Origin: Bacteroidetes bacterium GWF2_35_48
GTDB lineage: Bacteria; Bacteroidota; Bacteroidia; Bacteroidales; GWF2-35-48
DNA: 47,444 nucleotides
Direction: 5' to 3'
NCBI GenBank assembly: GCA_001769125.1
Contig: MEOG01000035.1
Coordinates: forward strand, 1 to 47,444
Each line of letters opens with the position of its first letter. Within the stretch, counting starts at the first letter, position 1. Positions 8,640 through 47,241 of the stretch are shown piece by piece. The notes beneath the pieces are model-generated. The model did no database searches and had not been told where the DNA came from. It saw only the letters and a list, made by a program, of their open reading frames with translations. The position numbers and the translations under genes are program-made.

Positions 8640-9707
8640 ATGAAATTTCCAGAGTTAAATATTATCAAATATCTTATTCTGATTCTCTGTTTCAGCCAGA
8701 TTTCTTATGCGCAAAAAACTATAAACCTTAAGCCTGATAAGATATTAATTTATAACAGAAATTTTTACTTATCTGATATTATTGATGCCCGAAAAGACAC
8801 CGGTAGTATTGGAATCAGCACAGATAAACAGGAAATTTTTATTGAGCAGGGAGTTAAATTGGCTTTTCTTAATTACTTCTTTACTGCGTTACCTAAAGAA
8901 CAAAAAAGACAGATACCAGTTGTTCTTAAAGTAAATAAAATTCTTGTTACAGAAGAAAACGAATACAGCGAAATTGCGACAGCGATAGCCGAAGTAGAGT
9001 TTATGGTAAAATCAGATGAAGAGTTAATCAGCATTTTTAAAACTGAATCAGAAGTTAGGGAAAGCGGTTCTGGAATAGCTGCTTCACATGAAAAAAGAAT
9101 CCGGTTTGTCTTATACGATTGCTTAAAAAAATTCAGTGAAAATGCTTGGAATCTTGGAGCAAAAATTAAAAATGTGAAAGAGATAAAAGAGGCAGGACCG
9201 TTTTCAGAAAAAAAACAGGACAGAGGGAAAATCATTTATGATAATGAAACTGCTAAATCGAAAGAAAAAATTGAAAAGAATCGAAAAAGACAAGATGACG
9301 ATATGATTCCGCTTAAACAAAAAAATATTTTTGCCGTAGGTTTTTTACTTGGAGGCATCTGTCTTGTTGGTTTTGAATATGAAATAAGAGTGCATAATTA
9401 CATCGGCTTAAATTTTGGCGCAGGTTATCCCGGTTTTACGGGAGGAATAAAAATTCATACAGGATCCGGCAGAGACAGTCATTTTTTCAACCTCAGTTTC
9501 AAAGATTTTTATTATGGATTGATGAATGCTGCAGGCATAGAATGGGGAGGCAGGTGGGTATTTCGTGATGGAAAAAAATTAGGACTTCTCTACCAGTTCG
9601 GATTGGTTTACCAGACAGGAATTAACAAAGATTTAGAAAAACTTTTATACAATGGAAAAGCGTATTCGAAAATCAGTCCGTTTTTTGGTGTTGGATTAAG
9701 CTGGTAA
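8640..9707 (+). CDS. Exported hypothetical protein with a C-terminal barrel-like region
   Basis: I do not recognise a named family. The 355-residue product has a signal peptide (hydrophobic residues 9-22, cleavage probably after YAQ). Residues 30-190 are mixed alpha/beta, residues 190-220 are highly charged (Lys/Glu-rich, likely a linker), and the last 125 residues are Gly/aromatic-rich alternating strands (GFLLGGICLVGFEYE, GLNFGAGYPGFTGG) ending in a hydrophobic GVGLSW. That pattern suggests an outer-membrane-associated strand region. It converges with the next gene with a 4-base gap and no terminator between them. Confidence 0.7.
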   Translation: MKFPELNIIKYLILILCFSQISYAQKTINLKPDKILIYNRNFYLSDIIDARKDTGSIGISTDKQEIFIEQGVKLAFLNYFFTALPKEQKRQIPVVLKVNKILVTEENEYSEIATAIAEVEFMVKSDEELISIFKTESEVRESGSGIAASHEKRIRFVLYDCLKKFSENAWNLGAKIKNVKEIKEAGPFSEKKQDRGKIIYDNETAKSKEKIEKNRKRQDDDMIPLKQKNIFAVGFLLGGICLVGFEYEIRVHNYIGLNFGAGYPGFTGGIKIHTGSGRDSHFFNLSFKDFYYGLMNAAGIEWGGRWVFRDGKKLGLLYQFGLVYQTGINKDLEKLLYNGKAYSKISPFFGVGLSW

Positions 9708-9711
9708 ATGG

Positions 9712-10143
9712 CTATTCATCATCCATCTGAATAAAAATCAAATCAGGATCTTCTTTGCTGGGGGTTTCTGTTTTTGCGGTTTCTCTTTTTTTCTTGATTT
9801 CTTTTAGCCATTTCTCATACGCTTTGAACTGAGTCGTATCCATAATAGTTTTTAACTCTTCATTGGCTGTTTGGTTTCGCTTATTTTTTGCATTTGTGGC
9901 AGCAGTAAGATTTTTATGGAATTTTTCCCTGTCAAGATCTTTTTGCTTTTCGCGTTTATAAATAACGTCCCACACATAAGTTCTTTGTTCAGGCGTAAGC
10001 TTGCAGACTTCTTTTAATTTATTTGCAATAGCATCTGATCTTTTATCAGGAGTCAATCTGTTAGGAATATCATTGCTTGCTATTAGGCTGATTGTATTGT
10101 ACAGATTAGCCAATATGAAAAGAGAAATAATTAAGGTTTTCAT
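9712..10143 (-). CDS. Small exported protein, Spy/CpxP-like in outline
   Basis: The 143-residue product has a signal peptide (MKTLIISLFILANL) followed by an entirely helical, highly charged body. The segment CKLTPEQRTYVWDV near residue 50 resembles the LTxxQ motif of Spy/CpxP periplasmic chaperones, and the family outline (short, helical, exported, Lys/Glu-rich) agrees; the match is suggestive only. It is the last gene of a minus-strand group, 18 bases after birA and the thioredoxin-like gene before that. Confidence 0.65.
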   Translation of the reverse strand: MKTLIISLFILANLYNTISLIASNDIPNRLTPDKRSDAIANKLKEVCKLTPEQRTYVWDVIYKREKQKDLDREKFHKNLTAATNAKNKRNQTANEELKTIMDTTQFKAYEKWLKEIKKKRETAKTETPSKEDPDLIFIQMDDE

Positions 10144-10161
10144 AATTTTTTTTTTACAAAT

Positions 10162-10908
10162 TTACAAAAAAGAAACATCATCTATATTACAGACGTATTT
10201 TTTTCCATCGGTTGCCTCTAATTGCAATCTTCCGTGTTCATCTACTCCTGTTATTTTTGCTTTTTCTTTTTCCCCCAAAATTTTATAATTTGCCATTTCC
10301 TGAAATCTGTATAAAGAGACAGAGTACATTTTATCAATTTCTTTATATTTTTCATTTTCAAGAAGCGAAAAATACTGAGAAATGCTCATGATTAAAACTT
10401 CAAGGCTGTTTTTCAAATCAAGATTAATACCGGTTAATTGTTTTAAAGAAACAGGATTCGGTGCTTTGCTCCGGAAATAAGTCTGATTGATATTTATTCC
10501 AATTCCAATTAAAGAAGATGCAATCGTATCGCCGGCAATTGAGTTTTCAATTAATATACCTGCAATTTTTTTCTTCCCTACATAAATATCATTCGGCCAT
10601 TTAATGGTAACATCATCTACATAATTTTTCACAAAAGCTGCAATCCCTAATGAGACACATTTTGAAATATAAAATGCCTGTTTAGCTTTCAAATATTCAG
10701 GGTAAATGATAAAACTGAAAGTCAGATTTTTTTCTTTTTCACTTTCCCAGTAATTATCTCCTCTGCCTTTTCCTGCTGTTTGTTTATCGGCTATTACGAG
10801 AGTTCCGTGAGCAAGTTTTTTTTCGTTCTGTAATTTTTTCAGATATGCATTGGTGGAATTCACTTTTTCAAGTTTAATGATTTTTGAGCCAATGGTTTCG
10901 TTTTTCAT
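10162..10908 (-). CDS. birA: Biotin--[acetyl-CoA-carboxylase] ligase
   Basis: The enzyme activates biotin as biotinyl-AMP and attaches it to the biotin carboxyl carrier protein in the cytoplasm. The 248-residue protein contains the catalytic GKGRG loop (residues 46-50), KWPNDIYV (103-110) and KKIAGILIEN (113-122), all hallmarks of the ligase. It has no N-terminal winged-helix DNA-binding domain, so it is a monofunctional (class I) ligase and not a biotin-operon repressor. It lies 25 bases downstream of the thioredoxin-like gene and is probably co-transcribed with it. Confidence 0.92.
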   Translation of the reverse strand: MKNETIGSKIIKLEKVNSTNAYLKKLQNEKKLAHGTLVIADKQTAGKGRGDNYWESEKEKNLTFSFIIYPEYLKAKQAFYISKCVSLGIAAFVKNYVDDVTIKWPNDIYVGKKKIAGILIENSIAGDTIASSLIGIGININQTYFRSKAPNPVSLKQLTGINLDLKNSLEVLIMSISQYFSLLENEKYKEIDKMYSVSLYRFQEMANYKILGEKEKAKITGVDEHGRLQLEATDGKKYVCNIDDVSFL

Positions 10909-10933
10909 ATTATCAAGTTAGAGAAATATATTA

Positions 10934-11968
10934 TTATTGCACCTTCCCTTTAAACGTCTTTAAAAATTCATCGTATTTAGTACTTTTAAATTTATCGTCT
11001 GCCAAAAAGTGTAAAACAGGCTCTATTCTTTCTGGAGGGAAGTAGCCCTGAATTTTTTCAAGCATTTGAAATTGTTCGCTCATTATCATCAGCGAGGGAT
11101 AAAACAATTGTTTGTTGAGCATCGTAATGACAATCTGATGCGGGTAATTCGGCGCTAATTTTTCATTGATAAAAACCTGATCGAAAACTTTAATTGTATC
11201 TGTGTCTTCTGCTGTTAATTTAACCGGGTAATATTTTTCATTTATATATTTTACAATTTCAGGATTATTGTATGTTGTTTTGTGCATAATTTTCGATGCA
11301 TTGTTCCATTTTGAAACAATATTAATTAGAATTTTCTTCGGATTTTTTTTAGAAAGTTCAACAGCATCGGGGAATTTCAGCCAAACTATTGTATCAGCTC
11401 TTATGACAGAATCTTTAACTCTGAAGGTTTTTTCAAAATATTTTTTAAAATCATCGTATGGCGCATTTCTGTTCACTCTCTCTGCAAAATAAACAAGCAA
11501 GGGCTCTATATCGTTTGGTGCCATGTAACCGGGCACAGGAGAAGGATTCCCTGTCTCATCAATATAAACAATTGTCGGGTAAGAAAGCTTTCCTTTCATG
11601 AGTTCAATAGCAAGACTGTGTGTTGCTTTTTTGCCTGTTCCTTCATTTTTATAATATTTTCCTTTGTACAAAATCGAATCTTTTCCTTCTGCATCAAAGC
11701 GCACAGGATAAAAGAATGTGTTGATATAATCTGCAATTCCCTGATGAGAAAATGTATTTTTCATCATAACTTTACACCAACCGCACCAGTCGGTGTAAAA
11801 ATCAACAAGAATGGGTTTTGGAAATTTTTTACTCAGGCTGTCTGCTTCTGTAATGGAAATCCATTTTACCAGACCATGCGATTCAACATCTGACTGCACC
11901 TCTTTGGTTTGTGCAAATCCTGAATAAGAAAAAGCAAATAGGAATAAGAATAATGCTATTGTTTTCAT
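10934..11968 (-). CDS. Exported protein with two thioredoxin-like domains
   Basis: The 344-residue product has a signal peptide (cleavage probably near FAQ, residue 20). Domain 1 (about 35-165) has a thioredoxin active site, DFYTDWCGWCKVM, with Cys62 and Cys65. Domain 2 (about 195-335) repeats the same layout (SKWNNASKIM, then YINEKYYPVKL matching YINTFFYPVRF of domain 1), but WCGWC has become WNNAS, so it cannot do dithiol chemistry. The role is probably periplasmic thiol handling by domain 1, with domain 2 structural or for client binding. It is the first gene of the minus-strand group that includes birA. Confidence 0.82.
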   Translation of the reverse strand: MKTIALFLFLFAFSYSGFAQTKEVQSDVESHGLVKWISITEADSLSKKFPKPILVDFYTDWCGWCKVMMKNTFSHQGIADYINTFFYPVRFDAEGKDSILYKGKYYKNEGTGKKATHSLAIELMKGKLSYPTIVYIDETGNPSPVPGYMAPNDIEPLLVYFAERVNRNAPYDDFKKYFEKTFRVKDSVIRADTIVWLKFPDAVELSKKNPKKILINIVSKWNNASKIMHKTTYNNPEIVKYINEKYYPVKLTAEDTDTIKVFDQVFINEKLAPNYPHQIVITMLNKQLFYPSLMIMSEQFQMLEKIQGYFPPERIEPVLHFLADDKFKSTKYDEFLKTFKGKVQ

Positions 11969-21954: not shown

Positions 21955-24900
21955 ATGAAAAAATTTTCTTATACTTTTTTATCTCTTTTGCTTTACAGTT
22001 TAGTTGCGTTTTCACAAATAACATTAGAAGTTCAGACTGGTCATATAGAAAATGTAAGTAAAATAGTTCTTTCTCCTGATGGGAAATTTATCGCATCAGG
22101 AAGCCATGACAAAACACTTCGTTTATGGGACACACGCACCAATTTGCAATTATATTCATGGTCATTTCCTGATGCGATATCTGGCACAGAATTTACTGCC
22201 GATGGAGCTTTTCTAGTTGCAGTAGCCCATGACTTTGCAGCTGTCATTGATATTAAATCAGGAAAAAAAATATTGGAATTTGAATTGAAAAACGGTCCGG
22301 CTTATGATTTAGAGTTAAGTCCTGATGGAAAAAAAATGTATGTAAACTCGAATGGCGCATCTGCAGACAAACCTTCATTTATTACCGTATATGATTTAGG
22401 TACAGGTAAAGAACTAAACAAATGGCAGGCGCATGGTTGGAGGATAACCTGTTTGGCTCTCAGCCCAAATGGTAAATTACTTTTTTCAGCATCTCAGGAT
22501 GTATCCTGTAAAATATGGAACACGAAGAATGGAGAACAAGAAAATGGGTTCTCAACGGGCGATATTGTTAAAGATGCTGTATTTACACCCGACGGAAAAA
22601 AGATTATTGTTGCATCCGGAGACAGATTTAAAGGAAAAATGTACGATGTTCAAATATGGTCTTTAAAAGGAGAACAAGAAAAAAGTGTAAAAAACGTGGG
22701 AGTTAACCCGACCAATAATATTAATGCAGTTAGTATTAGTCCTAGTGGCAACCTTGTTGTTTTTGGTGGTCATGAAGGAAAAGCAATAGTATGGGATATC
22801 AAAAAGGGTACAATTTTACAGAACATACAAACTGAAGGTGCAATTCTTGATTTATGTTTTACTGCTGATGAGCAATTTTTTTATACTGCGAACGGGAGAA
22901 TTACTGTTAATGATCCTTTTATTAAATATATTGCAATGTATAATATAAAAAATGCGAGGAAAGTAAAAGAAATTAAAGGAAAATGCGCTATAGCTACAGA
23001 TGTGGCAGTAAACAATTCAAATAAAGCAATAATTTCTTATGCCTCAGACGGGGTCAGGATTTGGGATTTACCTACAGCGAGAATCATAAAATCTATACCC
23101 GAAGATGTTGAAGTACAGTTTGCATCAACTGCTAAAAATAATGCGGGATGGGCTTATTCTTCCCAGAAAATAGTTAAAGTTCTGGATGCAAATAATAAGT
23201 TAAAATGCACTATTCCTCTGGAAATTTCACGTGGAATTCAATTGAGCCCCGATGGTTCAAAAGTAATTGTTGCAAATTGGAAAGATATCGGGTTATTCGA
23301 AACTTCAAGTGGAAAATTAATTAATTCATACCCTATAAAAAACAAGGCGAATGATTACAGAGTAAGTAATATTGCAGTGAATCCTGATTTCACCAAAATA
23401 GCATTAATTTACAACTATATGATAGGAGAAAATTGGACAGGTCATGGGGAACAGGCAGATATTTATGAAATTTCAGGGAATTTTATTTGTTCTGCTTCTT
23501 TCCCAATTGCAATGGATTATTCTACATTTAGTGCCGATGGTAATTTGTTAATTGGCGGGCATTCAGATGGGAAAGACAATACGCCGCTCCTTGTAAATTC
23601 TAAAACAGGTGATAAAGTAATTTCTTTTCCAGATATTAAATCTGCAAACAAAGTGCTTTTCAGTAATGATTCAAAAAAAATATATTTTGCAGACAGTCGT
23701 GGTAAAATTAAACTTTGCGATGCAAAAACCGGAAATATTGAAAAAGAAATCCAGGCTCATACTGGTAAAATTACAGCCTTGTGCCTGCAAGGCGATCAAT
23801 ATTTATTAAGTACAGGGGAAGATTGTGAAACAAAAATGTGGAATCCTGTAACACTGGAAGAAAAAGCATCGTTTATTGCGTTTCAAGACGAAGATTATGC
23901 ATGCATTTTACCCGACAATTATTATTCTGTATCCAAAAAAGCGGTTGATGGTATCGCTTTTCGCTTTGATAATAAAAGTTACTATTGCCGTCAGTTCGAT
24001 ATCAAGTTTAACAGACCTGATATTGTTCTGAAAAGAATCGGGCTGGTTGAAAAAAACACTGAAGCCCTTTACACGAAAGCTTTTTATAAAAGATTAAAAA
24101 GACAAAACTTATCTGAACAATTGCTTGAACAAAGCATCATGAATTTACCCGAAATTAATATAGCGGGCGAAGTTCCGGTTTCTGTTTCCAAAAAAGAATT
24201 TTCCTTTAAAATTAAAGCAGAAGATAAATCGGCGCAATTATCAAAAATAATATTATCAATTAACAACATCCCTATTTATGGTGCGAAGGGTTTAATATTA
24301 ACTGAAAAATCTAATACTATTGATAAAAAAATTGATGTAATTCTGACCTCTGGAATCAACAAGATAAGTGTTGCGGTTCAAAATGAGAAGGGACTTCTTT
24401 CATTAGAGCAAAGCTTTGAGATAATGTATGATGCAGCAGGAAAAAAAGGCAGCTTGTATTTGGCAACCATTGGGGTATCAGAATTTTCAGATGCTTCTAT
24501 GAATTTGAAATATGCTGCAAAAGACGCGAAAGATATAGCTGAAACATTCAAAGAAAATGGTGCTAAAAATTTCGACAATGTCAATATAATGACCCTTACA
24601 AATAAAGATGCTACCAAAGAAAAAATAATTGAGATAAAATCCTTTTTCAGCAAGGCACAACCTGAAGATATTGTTATACTTCAAATTGCTACACATGGGC
24701 TTTTAGATAATGATTTAAACTATTATCTGGCAACTACAGATATTGATTTTTCTTCTCCACAGTTAAAAGGTTTGGTTTACGAAGATTTTGAAAACTTAAT
24801 AGATGGAATTGCTTGCAGAAAAAAAATCGTTTTAATTGATGCCTGTCACTCGGGAGAAGTTGATACTGATGATAAAAATTTACTTGCAGATGCAGAAATA

Positions 24901-25272
24901 AAGAAAGGAAATGTTAATGCCAGAGGTTTTAAAACATTTAAAAAGCCGGCAGATCAGGTAGGAATGGCTAATGCTTATGAATTAATGAAAGAGCTTTTTG
25001 CTGATTTTAGAAGCAGCACGGGGGCAGTTATAATCTCAGCAGCTGGTGGTGCCGAATTTGCTTATGAATCTGATATGTGGAAAAATGGCGTTTTTACCTA
25101 TTCTTTGATTGATGGAATAAAAGACAAAAAAGCAGATACTAATAAAGATGGAATTATTATGATTTCTGAGCTTAGTGATTATATTTTTTCGAGTGTGAAA
25201 AAATTAACAAATGGGAAACAAAATCCAACATCCCGTAAAGAAAACAATGAGTTTAATTTCCGGGTGTGGTAA
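21955..25272 (+). CDS. Exported WD40-repeat protein with a C-terminal caspase (C14) domain
   Basis: The 1105-residue product has a signal peptide (MKKFSYTFLSLLLYSLVAFSQ). About residues 25-650 form WD40-type propellers, with units such as SGSHDKTLRLWDT, ASQDVSCKIWNT and STGEDCETKMWNP. A beta-sandwich-like linker spans about 740-820. The caspase-like domain from about 829 has the catalytic dyad His914 (ATHGLLD) and Cys964 (IDACHSGE), and a p10-like part ending in RVW. Caspase-like peptidases with Asp/Arg/Lys specificity fit. The WD40 part probably binds a partner or substrate. The signal peptide implies action outside the cytoplasm. It lies between the CphA-like gene and the dipeptidase gene on the same strand. 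Confidence 0.88.
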   Translation: MKKFSYTFLSLLLYSLVAFSQITLEVQTGHIENVSKIVLSPDGKFIASGSHDKTLRLWDTRTNLQLYSWSFPDAISGTEFTADGAFLVAVAHDFAAVIDIKSGKKILEFELKNGPAYDLELSPDGKKMYVNSNGASADKPSFITVYDLGTGKELNKWQAHGWRITCLALSPNGKLLFSASQDVSCKIWNTKNGEQENGFSTGDIVKDAVFTPDGKKIIVASGDRFKGKMYDVQIWSLKGEQEKSVKNVGVNPTNNINAVSISPSGNLVVFGGHEGKAIVWDIKKGTILQNIQTEGAILDLCFTADEQFFYTANGRITVNDPFIKYIAMYNIKNARKVKEIKGKCAIATDVAVNNSNKAIISYASDGVRIWDLPTARIIKSIPEDVEVQFASTAKNNAGWAYSSQKIVKVLDANNKLKCTIPLEISRGIQLSPDGSKVIVANWKDIGLFETSSGKLINSYPIKNKANDYRVSNIAVNPDFTKIALIYNYMIGENWTGHGEQADIYEISGNFICSASFPIAMDYSTFSADGNLLIGGHSDGKDNTPLLVNSKTGDKVISFPDIKSANKVLFSNDSKKIYFADSRGKIKLCDAKTGNIEKEIQAHTGKITALCLQGDQYLLSTGEDCETKMWNPVTLEEKASFIAFQDEDYACILPDNYYSVSKKAVDGIAFRFDNKSYYCRQFDIKFNRPDIVLKRIGLVEKNTEALYTKAFYKRLKRQNLSEQLLEQSIMNLPEINIAGEVPVSVSKKEFSFKIKAEDKSAQLSKIILSINNIPIYGAKGLILTEKSNTIDKKIDVILTSGINKISVAVQNEKGLLSLEQSFEIMYDAAGKKGSLYLATIGVSEFSDASMNLKYAAKDAKDIAETFKENGAKNFDNVNIMTLTNKDATKEKIIEIKSFFSKAQPEDIVILQIATHGLLDNDLNYYLATTDIDFSSPQLKGLVYEDFENLIDGIACRKKIVLIDACHSGEVDTDDKNLLADAEIKKGNVNARGFKTFKKPADQVGMANAYELMKELFADFRSSTGAVIISAAGGAEFAYESDMWKNGVFTYSLIDGIKDKKADTNKDGIIMISELSDYIFSSVKKLTNGKQNPTSRKENNEFNFRVW

Positions 25273-41222: not shown

Positions 41223-41603
41223 TTAATCTCTGAAAGGTACCATTTTAAAGGGAACACTTAATGAGGATGAATATTCTTCACCAATTTCCAGCAGGTCTTC
41301 ATTGTCAATTTCATAAAACCAGCTTATTTGAACCTTGTGTCCTTCTTTGTATATGGCTTCAAATTTTCTGAAAACATCTACTAAACATTTAGACGAACTT
41401 GTATTAAAATATTCAAGGTTGATTTTAACATCAGTAAATACATGGGGCGTTTTCACGTATTCATCGAGCCATGAGAAAATGGGTCTGTAAAAACCTATGG
41501 AGTCCTCAGGGATTGATCTGCCGGATAATTCAAATTTACCTGTTTCAATATTAAAATCAACAAGCGGTGTTTTTTCAGTTTTCTTTTTCAATAAAGATTC
41601 CAT
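41223..41603 (-). CDS. SiaC-like regulatory phosphoprotein (DUF1987)
   Basis: A 126-residue protein of the DUF1987 family, whose characterised member SiaC is controlled by phosphorylation on a threonine. The conserved stretch INLEYFNTSSSKCLVDVFRK contains Thr68 in NTSSSK, the family phosphosite region. The usual partners, a SiaB-type kinase and a PP2C phosphatase, are not adjacent, so it is an orphan copy here. A candidate promoter lies directly upstream. Confidence 0.85.
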   Translation of the reverse strand: MESLLKKKTEKTPLVDFNIETGKFELSGRSIPEDSIGFYRPIFSWLDEYVKTPHVFTDVKINLEYFNTSSSKCLVDVFRKFEAIYKEGHKVQISWFYEIDNEDLLEIGEEYSSSLSVPFKMVPFRD

Positions 41604-41954: not shown

Positions 41955-42740
41955 ATGAATGAAGTCTTAACATTAACCCTCGTACAGTCTGCTCTTGATT
42001 GGGAAAATTCCCAGTCAAATATAGATTTTTTTCAAAGCGTTATAATGGATATTAAAGAAGCAACAGATTTGATAATTCTTCCGGAAATGTTCACAACAGG
42101 ATTTTCAATGCGGGCAAGGGAGCTTGCAGAATTGCCTGATGGATTAAGTTTTAAATGGATGCAAAATATTGCAAATGAAAAGCAGTCTGCTGTTTGTGGC
42201 TCTGTTATTGTTAAGGAAGGCGATCGGTTTTATAACAGATTTATGTTTGTGAAACCCGATGGAACTTTTTCTTATTACGATAAGCGGCATTTGTTTCGTC
42301 TCGCGGGCGAAAATGAGCGTTTTACATCAGGAAGCAGACGTGTTGTTGTTGAATGGAAAGGATGGAGAATTCTTCCGTTGATTTGTTATGATCTGCGTTT
42401 TCCCGTGTGGAGCAGAAACCGTAATGATTATGATTTAATAATCAATGTTGCCAATTGGCCTGCTGTTCGTTCTGATACATGGAAAACACTTTTAAAAGCA
42501 AGGGCTATCGAAAATCAGTCTTTTATTGTTGGTGTAAACAGAATAGGCACTGATGGCATGGGGTATAAATATTCCGGAGATTCGGGTTTGTATTCGCCCT
42601 ATGGTGTTGAACTTTCAGAAATAAAACCCGACAATCAGGAAGTGCTTACAATAAAAATATCAAAAAAAGATTTGCAAGATTGTCGCAACAAATATCCTTT
42701 TTTTAAAGATGCTGATGATTTTGAAATATCAGGATTATAG
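41955..42740 (+). CDS. Omega-amidase-like carbon-nitrogen hydrolase (YafV/NIT2 type)
   Basis: The 261-residue cytoplasmic protein is a nitrilase-superfamily amidase. The catalytic triad is Glu44 (ILPEMFTTGF), Lys110 (YYDKRHLF) and Cys144 (LICYDLRFP). The motif pattern fits the YafV/omega-amidase branch, which hydrolyses alpha-ketoglutaramate and related ketoacid amides formed by glutamine transaminases. An aminotransferase gene lies 308 bases downstream, consistent with that pairing. Nothing in the sequence fixes the exact substrate. Confidence 0.88.
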   Translation: MNEVLTLTLVQSALDWENSQSNIDFFQSVIMDIKEATDLIILPEMFTTGFSMRARELAELPDGLSFKWMQNIANEKQSAVCGSVIVKEGDRFYNRFMFVKPDGTFSYYDKRHLFRLAGENERFTSGSRRVVVEWKGWRILPLICYDLRFPVWSRNRNDYDLIINVANWPAVRSDTWKTLLKARAIENQSFIVGVNRIGTDGMGYKYSGDSGLYSPYGVELSEIKPDNQEVLTIKISKKDLQDCRNKYPFFKDADDFEISGL

Positions 42741-43048: not shown

Positions 43049-44383
43049 ATGGGAAAGATTGATTTATCTACAAAACAAACACCAATTGACTACAAAACAG
43101 TAACAGAAAAAATAGAAGCTTCCGGTATTGCCAATATTGGAAAAGCCACCATTCGTGAACTTGTTAGGCTGGTAAACCAAATTGAGGGTGCGACCGGAAA
43201 GAAATTTGTAAGGATGGAAATGGGCGTGCCGGGGCTGAAACCACCACAAATCGGTATTGATGCTGAAATTAAATCATTGCAGGAAGGTGCTGCGGCCAAG
43301 TATGTTTTAATAGACGGTATTCCTGAATTGAAAAAAGAAGCCTCACGCTTTGTGAAATTATTCATGGATATTGACGTAGATGCTGAATGTTGCGTTCCTA
43401 CTGTTGGTTCCATGCAGGGTTCGTTTGCAGCTTTCATGCTTATGGGAAAATACATGAAGGGAAAAGACACAACCCTGTTTATTGATCCCGGTTTTCCTGT
43501 TCAGAAACAGCAGCACCACGCATTGGGAATAAAGTATGAAACATTTGATGTTTATGATTACAGGGGATCAAAACTGAAAGAAAAACTGGAATCATATCTT
43601 GTTAAGGGTAATATTTCATGCATTGTTTACTCAAATCCTAACAACCCTGCATGGGTTTGTTTTAATGATGATGAACTGAAAATTATAGGCGATCTGGCGA
43701 ACAAATATGATATTACAGTAGTTGAAGACCTTGCTTATTTCGGAATGGATTTCCGAAAAGACCTCTCAAAGCCCGGATTGCCACCTTATCAGCCAACAGT
43801 TGCAAAATATACGGATAATTATTTCTTAATGATTTCCAGTTCTAAAATTTTCAGCTATGCAGGGCAAAGAATAGGACTTGCTGTTATTTCCAATAAATTG
43901 TATAATCGTTGTTTTCCCGGTTTAACAGAAAACTTTAAAACAGAAAAATTCGGTTATGCTTTTGTATACCGCGTTCTTTATTCGCTGACAGCAGGAACGG
44001 CTCATTCTGCTCAATACGGGTTAACATCCATGTTAAAGGCAGTAAATGATGGTTCGTATAATTTTGTTGAAGCTACCAGAGAATATGGAGAGAAAGCTAA
44101 AATCATGAAAAAATTTTTTACGGATAACGGCTTTACTATTGTATACGATAAAGACATTGATCAGCCTCTTGCCGATGGTTTTTATTTTACTTTTGCGTAT
44201 CCCGGATTTACTGGCGAAGAATTGCTTGAACAACTTTTGTATTATGGTATCAGTGCTATTTCTCTTTCTATTACAGGAAGCGACCGGGTTGAAGGAATCA
44301 GAGCTTGTGTTTCTCTTGTTATGAGAAGCCAGTTTGAAGACCTCGAACTACGCCTGAAATTATTTCACGAACATCATAAATAA
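43049..44383 (+). CDS. PLP-dependent aminotransferase, class I/II (fold type I)
   Basis: The 444-residue cytoplasmic enzyme transfers an amino group between an amino acid and a 2-oxo acid. Visible landmarks are MGVPGLKPP (58-66), YSNPNNPAWV (194-203), VVEDLAYFG (224-232, with the PLP-ring Asp227 and Tyr230) and SSSKIFSYAGQRIG (263-276), where Lys266 forms the Schiff base. The C-terminal substrate Arg is probably in EGIRACVSL. Substrate preference cannot be read. It sits between an omega-amidase-like gene and a tryptophanase-like fusion on the same strand, so a role in amino acid catabolism is likely. Confidence 0.88.
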   Translation: MGKIDLSTKQTPIDYKTVTEKIEASGIANIGKATIRELVRLVNQIEGATGKKFVRMEMGVPGLKPPQIGIDAEIKSLQEGAAAKYVLIDGIPELKKEASRFVKLFMDIDVDAECCVPTVGSMQGSFAAFMLMGKYMKGKDTTLFIDPGFPVQKQQHHALGIKYETFDVYDYRGSKLKEKLESYLVKGNISCIVYSNPNNPAWVCFNDDELKIIGDLANKYDITVVEDLAYFGMDFRKDLSKPGLPPYQPTVAKYTDNYFLMISSSKIFSYAGQRIGLAVISNKLYNRCFPGLTENFKTEKFGYAFVYRVLYSLTAGTAHSAQYGLTSMLKAVNDGSYNFVEATREYGEKAKIMKKFFTDNGFTIVYDKDIDQPLADGFYFTFAYPGFTGEELLEQLLYYGISAISLSITGSDRVEGIRACVSLVMRSQFEDLELRLKLFHEHHK

Positions 44384-44592: not shown

Positions 44593-47241
44593 ATGATAGC
44601 AGAACCTCATAAAATTAAAACTGTAAGAAACATTAAATTTTTATCATTCTTAGACAGAGTTGATGCTCTTCAGGATGCAAATTATAATACTTTCAGAGTA
44701 AAATCTGATAAAGTAATTTTTGACATGACCAGTCAGGGAACAAGTGCCGTAAGCCACGATCAGTATTCCGGTCTTTATATTGGCGATGAAACCTATGCAG
44801 GAAGCCGTAACTTCGAATACCTGAAAGATTGTGTGCTTCGTATTTTTGGTCACAAAGATGTTTGTCCTACTCATAATATCAAAGGATCGCACAAGCTTAT
44901 TGTTGCTACAATGGTAAAAGGCGGGGATGTAATTTTATCCAATTCACATTCACCCTCGGAACTGATTAAGGACAAATGTGCAAGCATTGAGTATTTTAGC
45001 GATAAAGTGCACAAAGTATATCCCGGAAATATGGATTTAGGAAAACTGGAAGCCCGCCTTAAAGAAGGGATTCATGTTCCTTTTATTTATATGGAGCTTT
45101 TTGCAAGCGGTTATCGTCCGGTTTCTATGGAAAATATGAAAGCTGTTTATGCTTTGGCAGAAAAATATAAAACGGTGTTTGTATTAAATGTTTCTCAGGC
45201 TATTTCCAATGCGCAATATCTTCGTAAAAATGAAGCTTCCCTGAATGCAAAAAGTTTGCATGAACTTTTAAAAGAAATGGGAACTTCCGCGCATGTTATT
45301 GTTCTCGATGCAGGTCAAGATCCTCGTTCCAATACAGGCGGACTTATCGGTTCCAATGTGTCTGAATTGTACAATAAATATATGAATGAAGTTGTGGTAT
45401 ACGAAGGTCTTCATACTTATGGCGGTATGGCCGGAAGAACTATGGAAGTTTTTGCTCGTGGAATGGATGAAATGATAAAGGAAGAACAGGCAGAATGGAT
45501 TGATGTGCAGATCGAAAAGTTATCCTCACTTCTTAAAAATATTCCCCATTACAAAGGCGCAGATGGAATTTACATCAAATCCGATGAATTTTTGCCCCAA
45601 TGCAAACAATATGCCCCATTCACTTTAGCTGCTGCAATGTACCTGAAAGCTGGTGTTCGTACATTTTTGCAAAATCGTTGGTGTCCTGAATGCAAGCTTC
45701 TTCCTTTACAAATACCACGTCTTTCTTTTACAATGGATCAGATTGCGCAAATTGCAGAATCAATTAACCAATTGTATGCAGAGCGTAATAAAATAACAGA
45801 GCTTGTGCTTACAAACACTCCGGTTTGGTCTGACGAGGCTGAATTCAAATGGAAACGCCCATTAATGAATGGATACAAATTTTCTTGTGAAGCATACACA
45901 ATTCAGCATTTTGAATATTTCGGAACATGCAGCAGGGAAGAGCGTCTGAAACAAATGAATGAAGCGGGATTTAACACTTTTCTTCTTCCAAATAAATATA
46001 TTGGAATAGATTTATTGACAGACTCCGGTACTTGTTCTCAAACAACAACCGCATGGAGTAAATATATTCTGAGTTCAGAAACGCAAGCTTCTTCAATCAG
46101 CTACGATGAATTGGTAAAAGAATTGCAAGGCGTAACCGGATATAAATATATTGTTCCTACGCATCAGGGAAGAGCTGCAGAACATATCATGTCCCAATGT
46201 TTAATTAAAGGAGGATTTGTCCCGGGAAACATGTATTTCACAACCACAAAATTGCACCAGGAGTTAGCCGGTGGTACTTTTGTTGACATCATTGTTGATG
46301 AAGCGCATGTTGCCCAAAGTAATTTTTTATGGAAAGGGAATGTAGATGTTAGAAAAATTGATGTTATTGTGCAAAAACACGGAGCTGATTCCATACCTTA
46401 TATAAGTTTTGAATTCAATGTGAATCTTGCAGGCGGTCAGCCAGTATCAATGGATAATGCAAGAGAGGTTTATGAATATTGTGAAAAGCATAATATTCCT
46501 GTAATGTGGGATGCTACCCGCGCTGTTGAAAATGCTTATTTTGTTAAGAAAAATGATCCGCGTTTTAAAGATACATCCATTAAAGATATTTTAAGGGAAT
46601 TATTTAGCTATGGACATGGTTGTACTGTTTCTGCAAAGAAAGATTATCTGGTAAATATCGGGGGTTTCCTTGCTATTAAAGATGATGAAAAATTTTACAA
46701 CAAAGCAATGGAAATGTTGCGTATTTATGAAGGTTCTGTTACCAACGGCGGTTTGTCTGCCGGAGATATGGCTGCATTTGCGCAAGGAGTTCGCGAAATG
46801 GTGGATGAAGATTACATTACCGCACGCGTTGAACAGGTACTGTATCTTGGTCAGAAACTATTGAAAGCAGGTGTTCCTATTGTTGAACCTGTTGGCGGTC
46901 ACGCTGTATTTTTAGATGCAAAACGTTTTTTACCACATATTGATCAGGATGCATACCCAGCGCAGGCACTTGCTTCTGCATTGTTTGTAGAGTCAGGAGT
47001 AAGATCTATGGAGAGAGGAAATGTTTCTAAAGGTCGTGATAAAGATGGAAAAAACTACAGACCCCATCTGGAACTTGTTCGTCTTACAATTCCAAGAAGA
47101 GCGTATACGAATGCTCACATGGATTTAATAGCAGATTGCATTATTGATATTTATAAGAAACGTGAAACTGTAAAAGGTCTCCGCTTTACTTATGAACCGC
47201 CTATGCTTCGTTTTTTCCAAGGAAGATTTGAAGAAATCTAA
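44593..47241 (+). CDS. Tandem fusion of two tryptophanase/tyrosine phenol-lyase-like domains
   Basis: An 882-residue protein, about twice the length of tryptophanase (471 in E. coli). The C half (about 420-882) is full length: LLTDSGT (474-480), THQGRAAEHIM (523-533), NLAGGQPVSM (611-620), the PLP lysine motif SAKKD (680-684, Lys683), GGHAVFLDA (768-776), RLTIPRRAYTNAHMD (830-844) and FTYEPPMLRFF (865-875). The N half (1-415) has the same layout, including GDETYAGSRNF (64-74) and GYRPVSMEN (173-181), but its SAKKD position reads DAGQD (239-243), so it has no PLP lysine. In turn the C half has lost the GDEAYAGS segment (SSETQASS, 494-501). Beta-elimination giving pyruvate, ammonia and indole or phenol is the family reaction. 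A terminator follows. Confidence 0.85.
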   Translation: MIAEPHKIKTVRNIKFLSFLDRVDALQDANYNTFRVKSDKVIFDMTSQGTSAVSHDQYSGLYIGDETYAGSRNFEYLKDCVLRIFGHKDVCPTHNIKGSHKLIVATMVKGGDVILSNSHSPSELIKDKCASIEYFSDKVHKVYPGNMDLGKLEARLKEGIHVPFIYMELFASGYRPVSMENMKAVYALAEKYKTVFVLNVSQAISNAQYLRKNEASLNAKSLHELLKEMGTSAHVIVLDAGQDPRSNTGGLIGSNVSELYNKYMNEVVVYEGLHTYGGMAGRTMEVFARGMDEMIKEEQAEWIDVQIEKLSSLLKNIPHYKGADGIYIKSDEFLPQCKQYAPFTLAAAMYLKAGVRTFLQNRWCPECKLLPLQIPRLSFTMDQIAQIAESINQLYAERNKITELVLTNTPVWSDEAEFKWKRPLMNGYKFSCEAYTIQHFEYFGTCSREERLKQMNEAGFNTFLLPNKYIGIDLLTDSGTCSQTTTAWSKYILSSETQASSISYDELVKELQGVTGYKYIVPTHQGRAAEHIMSQCLIKGGFVPGNMYFTTTKLHQELAGGTFVDIIVDEAHVAQSNFLWKGNVDVRKIDVIVQKHGADSIPYISFEFNVNLAGGQPVSMDNAREVYEYCEKHNIPVMWDATRAVENAYFVKKNDPRFKDTSIKDILRELFSYGHGCTVSAKKDYLVNIGGFLAIKDDEKFYNKAMEMLRIYEGSVTNGGLSAGDMAAFAQGVREMVDEDYITARVEQVLYLGQKLLKAGVPIVEPVGGHAVFLDAKRFLPHIDQDAYPAQALASALFVESGVRSMERGNVSKGRDKDGKNYRPHLELVRLTIPRRAYTNAHMDLIADCIIDIYKKRETVKGLRFTYEPPMLRFFQGRFEEI

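Follow-up and report, generated by a model that had tools for sequence, protein, structure and literature searches.

A recurrent tandem fusion of tyrosine phenol-lyase-like halves with a complementary division of active-site residues

Introduction

Textbook accounts present tyrosine phenol-lyase (TPL; EC 4.1.99.2) and tryptophanase as homotetramers whose active sites are shared, and TPL is used in making L-DOPA. In a 47,444-nucleotide stretch of Bacteroidetes bacterium GWF2_35_48 (contig MEOG01000035.1, hereafter the window), one gene encodes two TPL/tryptophanase-like halves in a single chain, the first of which has Gln at the position of the PLP lysine. This raises the question of why a half without the PLP lysine is kept, and of where a working active site might be assembled in such a protein.

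Results

A single open frame encodes two TPL-like halves

The gene is a stop-free frame that starts with ATG and encodes 882 aa (Table 1). Pfam recognized two Beta_elim_lyase stretches in its product, and in sequence searches both sides matched a TPL, residues 1-439 with E 5e-55 and residues 427-882 with E 2e-163. This agrees with a previous sequence-only reading, in which both halves were described as tryptophanase/TPL-like, and the motif positions quoted there were also correct (GDETYAGS with Tyr68, DAGQD at 239-243, SSETQASS at 494-501, and Lys683). The stretch that joins the halves has three residues that are invariant in the alignment (N408, W420, and P423). No long direct repeat was found within the fusion gene, and a recent DNA duplication was rejected as its origin on this ground.

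Table 1. Coordinates of the fusion gene, its parts, and its upstream neighbor in the window
Feature	Position	Strand	Remarks
Aminotransferase class I/II gene, upstream of fusion	43049..44383	+	adjoins fusion in several genomes
Fused TPL/tryptophanase-like gene	44593..47241	+	882 aa; 22 homologues with same architecture, then two more
N half, pseudoenzyme keeping trans-acting loops	44593..45885	+	residues 1-431
N-terminal strand of N half	44608..44631	+	residues 6-13; Lys9 (TPL K11) kept, Arg12 replaces E14
Trans loop 1, GDETYAGS	44782..44805	+	residues 64-71; Tyr68 = TPL Tyr71
Gln242, PLP-lysine position of N half	45316..45318	+	Gln in 23/23, plus 2/2 later fusions
Trans loop 2, EGLHTYGGMAGR	45403..45438	+	residues 271-282; Tyr276 = TPL Tyr291 / TnaA Tyr307
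Joining stretch	45793..45885	+	about residues 401-431; partly conserved
C half, PLP-binding TPL-type domain (predicted)	45886..47241	+	residues 432-882
N-terminal strand of C half	45895..45918	+	residues 435-442; Glu441 (TPL E14) kept, Gln438 replaces K11
Gln498, TPL Tyr71 position, lost in C half	46084..46086	+	Gln 16, Pro 7 of 23
Lys683, PLP lysine of C half	46639..46641	+	Lys in 20/20 C halves with data
Asn718, TPL Tyr291 position, lost in C half	46744..46746	+	Asn 15, Ser 3, Thr 2 of 20

The fusion recurs across genomes

The fusion is present in 25 genomes, including the window's own. A search of 393 genomes of the order with the N half returned 26 matches at E 1e-60 or better, 23 of which (the window's own included) are fusions in one open frame, spread over 15 family codes; 19 are complete and four are cut at contig ends. 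The remaining three matches (L113-L115) are single-domain genes of the tryptophanase type with their tyrosines and lysine in place, and no stand-alone N-type gene was found among the 26. Among 395 genomes of the class there were three matches at E 1e-72 or better, namely the window's own and two new fusions, both of which fall outside the order and one of which lies in a genome consisting of a single 4.1-Mb contig. Among 395 genomes of the phylum, the window's own alone reached E 1e-70. Plasmid records gave 82 matches, every one <60% identical to the fusion, and the best 8 of the 82 lie at single-domain-sized places annotated as tyrosine phenol-lyase. A scan of genome contigs with the N half found two distant relatives only.

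The assembly of the window's genome comprises 142 contigs, which would leave room for a misassembled join of two genes, and one might equally suppose that the gene is a decaying pseudogene. However, misassembly or frameshift is excluded because the open-frame fusion recurs with the same architecture in 24 other genomes, including the single-contig one, while dN/dS values well under 1 in both halves (see below) argue against decay, so that we assign this explanation a negligible probability. The sequence-only reading had raised the concerns of a misassembly and of an unconserved N-half motif; the 24 additional genomes dispose of the former, and Tyr in 23/23 N halves at the Tyr68 position disposes of the latter. 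It should be noted that one of the class-level fusions (L119, genome G1014, positions 9148-11793) comes from another order of the class, yet is 84% identical to that of L099, which would reflect either horizontal transfer or contamination.

Cis and trans active-site residues are divided between the halves

According to PMC2770544, Tyr74 and Tyr307 of one subunit of E. coli tryptophanase (TnaA) reach the PLP of the neighboring subunit, with Tyr307 extending to the PLP phosphate. In the P. vulgaris enzyme, Tyr72 from the other chain lies 3.3-3.9 Å from the ring carbon of a bound substrate analogue (PMC11301627). The action of the loop tyrosine on the neighboring subunit, as stated in the sequence-only reading, is thus backed by both sources. 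By alignment with E. coli K-12 TnaA, Tyr68 and Gln498 of the window's protein correspond to Tyr74, Gln242 and Lys683 to Lys270, and Tyr276 and Asn718 to Tyr307.

Residue counts come from aligning the N and C halves of the 23 fusions with 58 of the 60 single-domain relatives collected, in the numbering of E. herbicola TPL; the number of C halves varies from 20 to 23 by position because four of the 23 fusions are cut at contig ends (L090, L098, L103, and L110). Tyr71, Tyr291, and Arg297 were each present in 23/23 N halves versus 0/23, 0/20, and 0/20 C halves, respectively, and D68 was also present in 23/23 N halves. Lys257 had the opposite distribution, being absent from all 23 N halves (Gln in every case) and present in 20/20 C halves, as were Arg404, Lys256, Ser254, and Arg381 (each 0/23 versus 20/20). 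Among the single-domain relatives, Y71, Y291, and K257 were all kept in 58/58. The remaining PLP/carboxylate residues of the C halves were similarly retained beside K257, R404, and S254, with D214 and R217 in 21/21 and N185 in 22/23, the exception being L110, whose row is cut at the contig end. Residues E69 and A72 of trans loop 1 are still found in 23/23 C halves. The two fusions fetched later match the others at both tyrosines, Arg297, the lysines, Arg404, Ser254, and Arg381, and D68 in one of their C halves is an exception to the split. The complementary losses noticed in the window's protein, with an N half devoid of the PLP lysine and a C half that keeps Lys683 without the trans-loop tyrosine, therefore hold in a family of 23 fusions plus two, wherever these positions can be read. 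A second trans tyrosine had been missed in the sequence-only reading, namely Tyr276, which is kept in the N half and lost (Asn718) in the C half.

In an unbiased scan, we considered the 100 positions that are ≥98% invariant in the 58 relatives and classified each as kept (≥90%) or lost (≤50%) in either half. Both halves kept 29 of these; a further nine survived in the N half alone and 35 in the C half alone, and 27 were mixed. The N-only positions are K11, V43, G67, D68, Y71, G73, Y291, G296, and R297, seven of which sit in the two trans loops. The bulk complementarity is modest (the N half retains 9 of the 14 positions that the C half has lost, versus 33 of the 86 others), and this count by itself is only suggestive; the weight rests on which residues split. 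As judged from the alignment, the complementary pattern is not due to chance, since it recurs in every fusion homologue readable at these positions. Many other near-invariant positions are also lost in the N halves, and their pocket is dead, with Q98 replaced by Asn (Asn95), S254 by Asp (Asp239), and K257 by Gln (Gln242) in 23/23. We take S254 of TPL to sit near the PLP phosphate, and therefore the new acid at this position would disfavor PLP in the N half, the pocket of which may be empty or occupied by a different ligand.

Purifying selection on the N half

Rates of dN/dS were computed for pairs with enough codons and an N-half dS <2, and we quote the nine pairs with dS <0.5. In these, N-half values were 0.10-0.18, while C-half values were 0.045-0.105 in eight of the nine pairs and 0.28 in the ninth, where one of the rows is truncated by the end of its contig. 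The mean identity over 190 pairs was 54% for N halves and 72% for C halves. The N half is thus under purifying selection, evolving faster yet clearly constrained. In a tree built from 84 of 105 rows (three rows were left out for shortness and 18 for near-identity to other rows), the N halves formed one clade (17 rows) and the C halves another (12 rows); the N halves lie on long branches, for which the program issued a warning, and the clades do not separate one duplication from two sources.

The halves of one chain probably meet at the non-catalytic interface

The best of five single-chain models of the fusion had a pLDDT of 82.6 and a pTM of 0.73, with low confidence in the active-site loops, and the C half modeled alone reached 90.0 and 0.90; the two were folded from different alignments (42 rows for the C half alone versus 23 for the fusion). 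Alignments A2 and A3 were left out of the folding, the invariant columns of A3 all being in the C half. The top structure match of the fusion model was TPL (Z 53.9; 446 C-half residues superposed with rmsd 1.9). We had expected the model to bring the halves together at the catalytic interface, but its strand pairing pointed to the non-catalytic interface instead. PMC2770544 describes the non-catalytic sheet of TnaA as strands 12-17 and 58-60 of two subunits, and the alignment maps four strands of the fusion model (6-13, 53-54, 435-442, and 482-484) onto the four strands of this sheet. The two from the C half, 435-442 and 482-484, are coil when the C half is modeled alone. The N-terminal strands have also diverged in a complementary manner. 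The single-domain relatives have Lys11 and Glu14 in 58/58 each, whereas N halves have Lys11 in 24/24 with data and Arg or Lys at 14, and C halves have Glu14 in 25/25 and Gln, Thr, or His at 11.

Judged from secondary structure, the halves of one chain thus probably meet through the non-catalytic interface. If so, the composite active site is more likely to lie between two chains, and we consider it probable that it forms there. The proposal in the sequence-only reading of a composite site inside one chain is not supported in this respect, as the strand pairing of the model indicates that N and C meet at the non-catalytic interface.

The C half has a TPL-type pocket

The C halves carry a TPL-type pocket (T124 in 23/23; R381, M379, and F448 in 20/20 each), whereas tryptophanase-type relatives have Asp at 124, Ile/Val at 381, mostly Val at 379, and His at 448. 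A tryptophanase-type relative is also encoded separately in the window's genome, by a single-domain gene whose product keeps its own tyrosines and lysine. Because the C-half pocket is TPL-type and this separate gene exists, the likeliest reaction, as predicted from sequence, would be that of L-tyrosine to phenol, pyruvate, and ammonia. Counting against it is the score with the TPL equivalog model TIGR02618 (cut-off 720.7 bits), which we expected the C half alone to pass; it reached 622 bits and the N half alone 226. The whole protein scored 838.5 bits by summing the two stretches, and automatic annotation may hide the fusion because the summed half scores carry it past the cut-off.

Discussion

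Our preferred interpretation, which we consider likely, is that N and C halves have become obligate partners in this TPL-like fusion, in place of the usual symmetric catalytic dimer, and that the dead N half serves the site of the C half. The C half would bind PLP, through Lys683, and the substrate, while the N half, without a working site of its own, would contribute Tyr68 as the catalytic acid together with the second trans loop, which carries Tyr276, and would have been retained for this reason; only half of the usual active sites would work. Both interfaces appear to be N-to-C, and two fused chains in a pseudo-D2 arrangement would therefore fit, with the halves of one chain meeting through their N-terminal strands and each active site shared between an N half and a C half that belong to different chains. 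The architecture, its recurrence, the residue pattern, and purifying selection are observed, whereas the catalytic pairing of the two halves, the reaction, and the assembly are what we infer from them. Of the earlier proposal that the N half is a pseudoenzyme donating a residue in trans, the pseudoenzyme part stands, as the N half is conserved, dead, and in possession of both trans tyrosines lost from the C half, and the donation itself belongs to our model. A more far-reaching version, which we offer tentatively and at slightly less than an even chance, is a second, independent glycine-decarboxylase-like architecture with two interlocked chains that assemble each active site between them. In this version an N half would always face a C half, at one interface through the trans tyrosines and the PLP site and at the other through N-half Lys11 and C-half Glu14, and the convergent Lys-to-Gln change would be the mark of a dead pocket that has conserved residues of its own and possibly a new ligand.

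The same residue pattern would fit equally well if the catalytic partners were the two halves of a single chain and the chains dimerized via the other interface, and the ~30-residue joining stretch could be long enough to allow this. However, the single-chain model shows, at the level of secondary structure, every one of the four strands that make up the TnaA non-catalytic sheet, and the two contributed by the C half vanish when it is modeled alone; we therefore regard a site within one chain as unlikely, though a serious contender. A regulatory or folding role for the N half, with a C half that dispenses with any trans tyrosine and acts, for example, on S-substituted cysteines with good leaving groups, is rather improbable. 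The loss of Tyr71 from the C half would agree with such a role, as would the observation in PMC3870968 that replacing Tyr71 affected different substrates differently, and the dead pocket has its own invariant Asn95, Asp239, and Gln242 and may bind something. Yet a purely regulatory domain would have no need of the tyrosines of both trans loops, which are kept in 23/23, and the pocket of the C half is of the tyrosine type. As the window's genome encodes a single-domain tryptophanase-type relative, the C half might also partner with that separate enzyme rather than with the N half. This seems very improbable, given that the relative has its own tyrosines and lysine and that the fusion chain carries conserved trans loops on its own N half.

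Under our preferred interpretation of an obligate N/C pair, the fusion has the fold, PLP lysine, carboxylate-binding residues, and TPL-type pocket of TPL in its C half, and the trans tyrosines of TPL are also present but carried by the N half. TPL has one domain per chain, identical sites, and both a cis site and a trans tyrosine on each subunit, whereas the fusion splits these between two unlike halves, with one of two sites dead. TnaA, the source of our cis/trans residue assignments, belongs to the same superfamily, but its tryptophanase-type residues (Asp, Ile/Val, and His at TPL 124, 381, and 448) are absent from the C half of the fusion.

The closest parallel in design is the glycine decarboxylase P-protein (GcvP/GLDC), an unusual fold-type-I enzyme with two similar halves per chain, in which Gln replaces Lys in the N half (PMC7259800). 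Its active Lys is in the C half only, as with Lys683 and Gln242 here, and in the fusions this design is seen as Gln in 23/23 N halves and Lys in 20/20 C halves. The statement in the sequence-only reading that no enzyme of this design was described was consequently too strong. The likeness is one of design alone, the P-protein being of another family and reaction: Pfam gives the fusion Beta_elim_lyase alone at E 0.001 or better, and the NCBIfam models that match are TPL/tryptophanase only. Glycine decarboxylase was absent among the 50 structure matches listed, an absence that is uninformative. Unfused alpha/beta forms are known for the P-protein, but none was seen for the fusion among the N-half matches in the order. 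None of the titles and abstract openings listed, from a literature with most subscription journals outside it, concerned a fused or heteromeric TPL/tryptophanase. At the level of sequence, the fusion is well supported as a repeat of the glycine decarboxylase design outside that family, down to the same Lys-to-Gln change.

Further parallels are SPTLC1, which lacks the PLP lysine, and the AdoMetDC/prozyme pair, which is activated by relief of autoinhibition and is neither a PLP enzyme nor fused. Eukaryotic serine palmitoyltransferase, a PLP enzyme, has a pair of unlike subunits (SPTLC1/SPTLC2) as its core, as described in PMC10196870; these are separate chains of a different family, and what they share with the fusion is the unlike pair. 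For Trypanosoma, PMC5201418 describes a catalytically dead paralogue of AdoMetDC as its functional partner, and a dead paralogue as partner is common to both systems. The fusion would be a second case, beside glycine decarboxylase, of a symmetric PLP dimer that became asymmetric, with the same Lys-to-Gln change, and a conserved natural version with unlike halves would make half-of-sites behavior and the role of the trans tyrosines addressable residue by residue.

The genes around the fusion would suit amino-acid fermentation. The upstream aminotransferase adjoins it in at least 7 of the 22 other order loci and in one of the two later loci (L119); in the window, this gene falls far short of the cut-off in each of the 25 listed NCBIfam models and perhaps represents a new subfamily with a role in the pathway of the fusion. 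Also found near the fusion were the alpha subunit of a 2-oxoacid:ferredoxin oxidoreductase (at least 8/23 loci), an ornithine-cyclodeaminase/alanine-dehydrogenase-like gene (at least 5/23), and an ADP-forming-type acyl-CoA ligase gene (at least 4/23), the counts being lower bounds because many of the loci are small or truncated by contig edges, and the gene names being taken from the members in L092 only. The same gene run as the fusion in L092 includes a PLP-dependent decarboxylase gene (10278-11717; diaminobutyrate/aspartate decarboxylase-like). Elsewhere in the window there is a SiaC-family regulatory phosphoprotein gene (41223-41603, minus strand), past which comes a gene for a carbon-nitrogen hydrolase (41955-42740) that is presumably omega-amidase-like. 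There is also a 1105-aa protein (21955-25272) that combines WD40-type propeller repeats with a C-terminal caspase-like (Peptidase_C14) domain.
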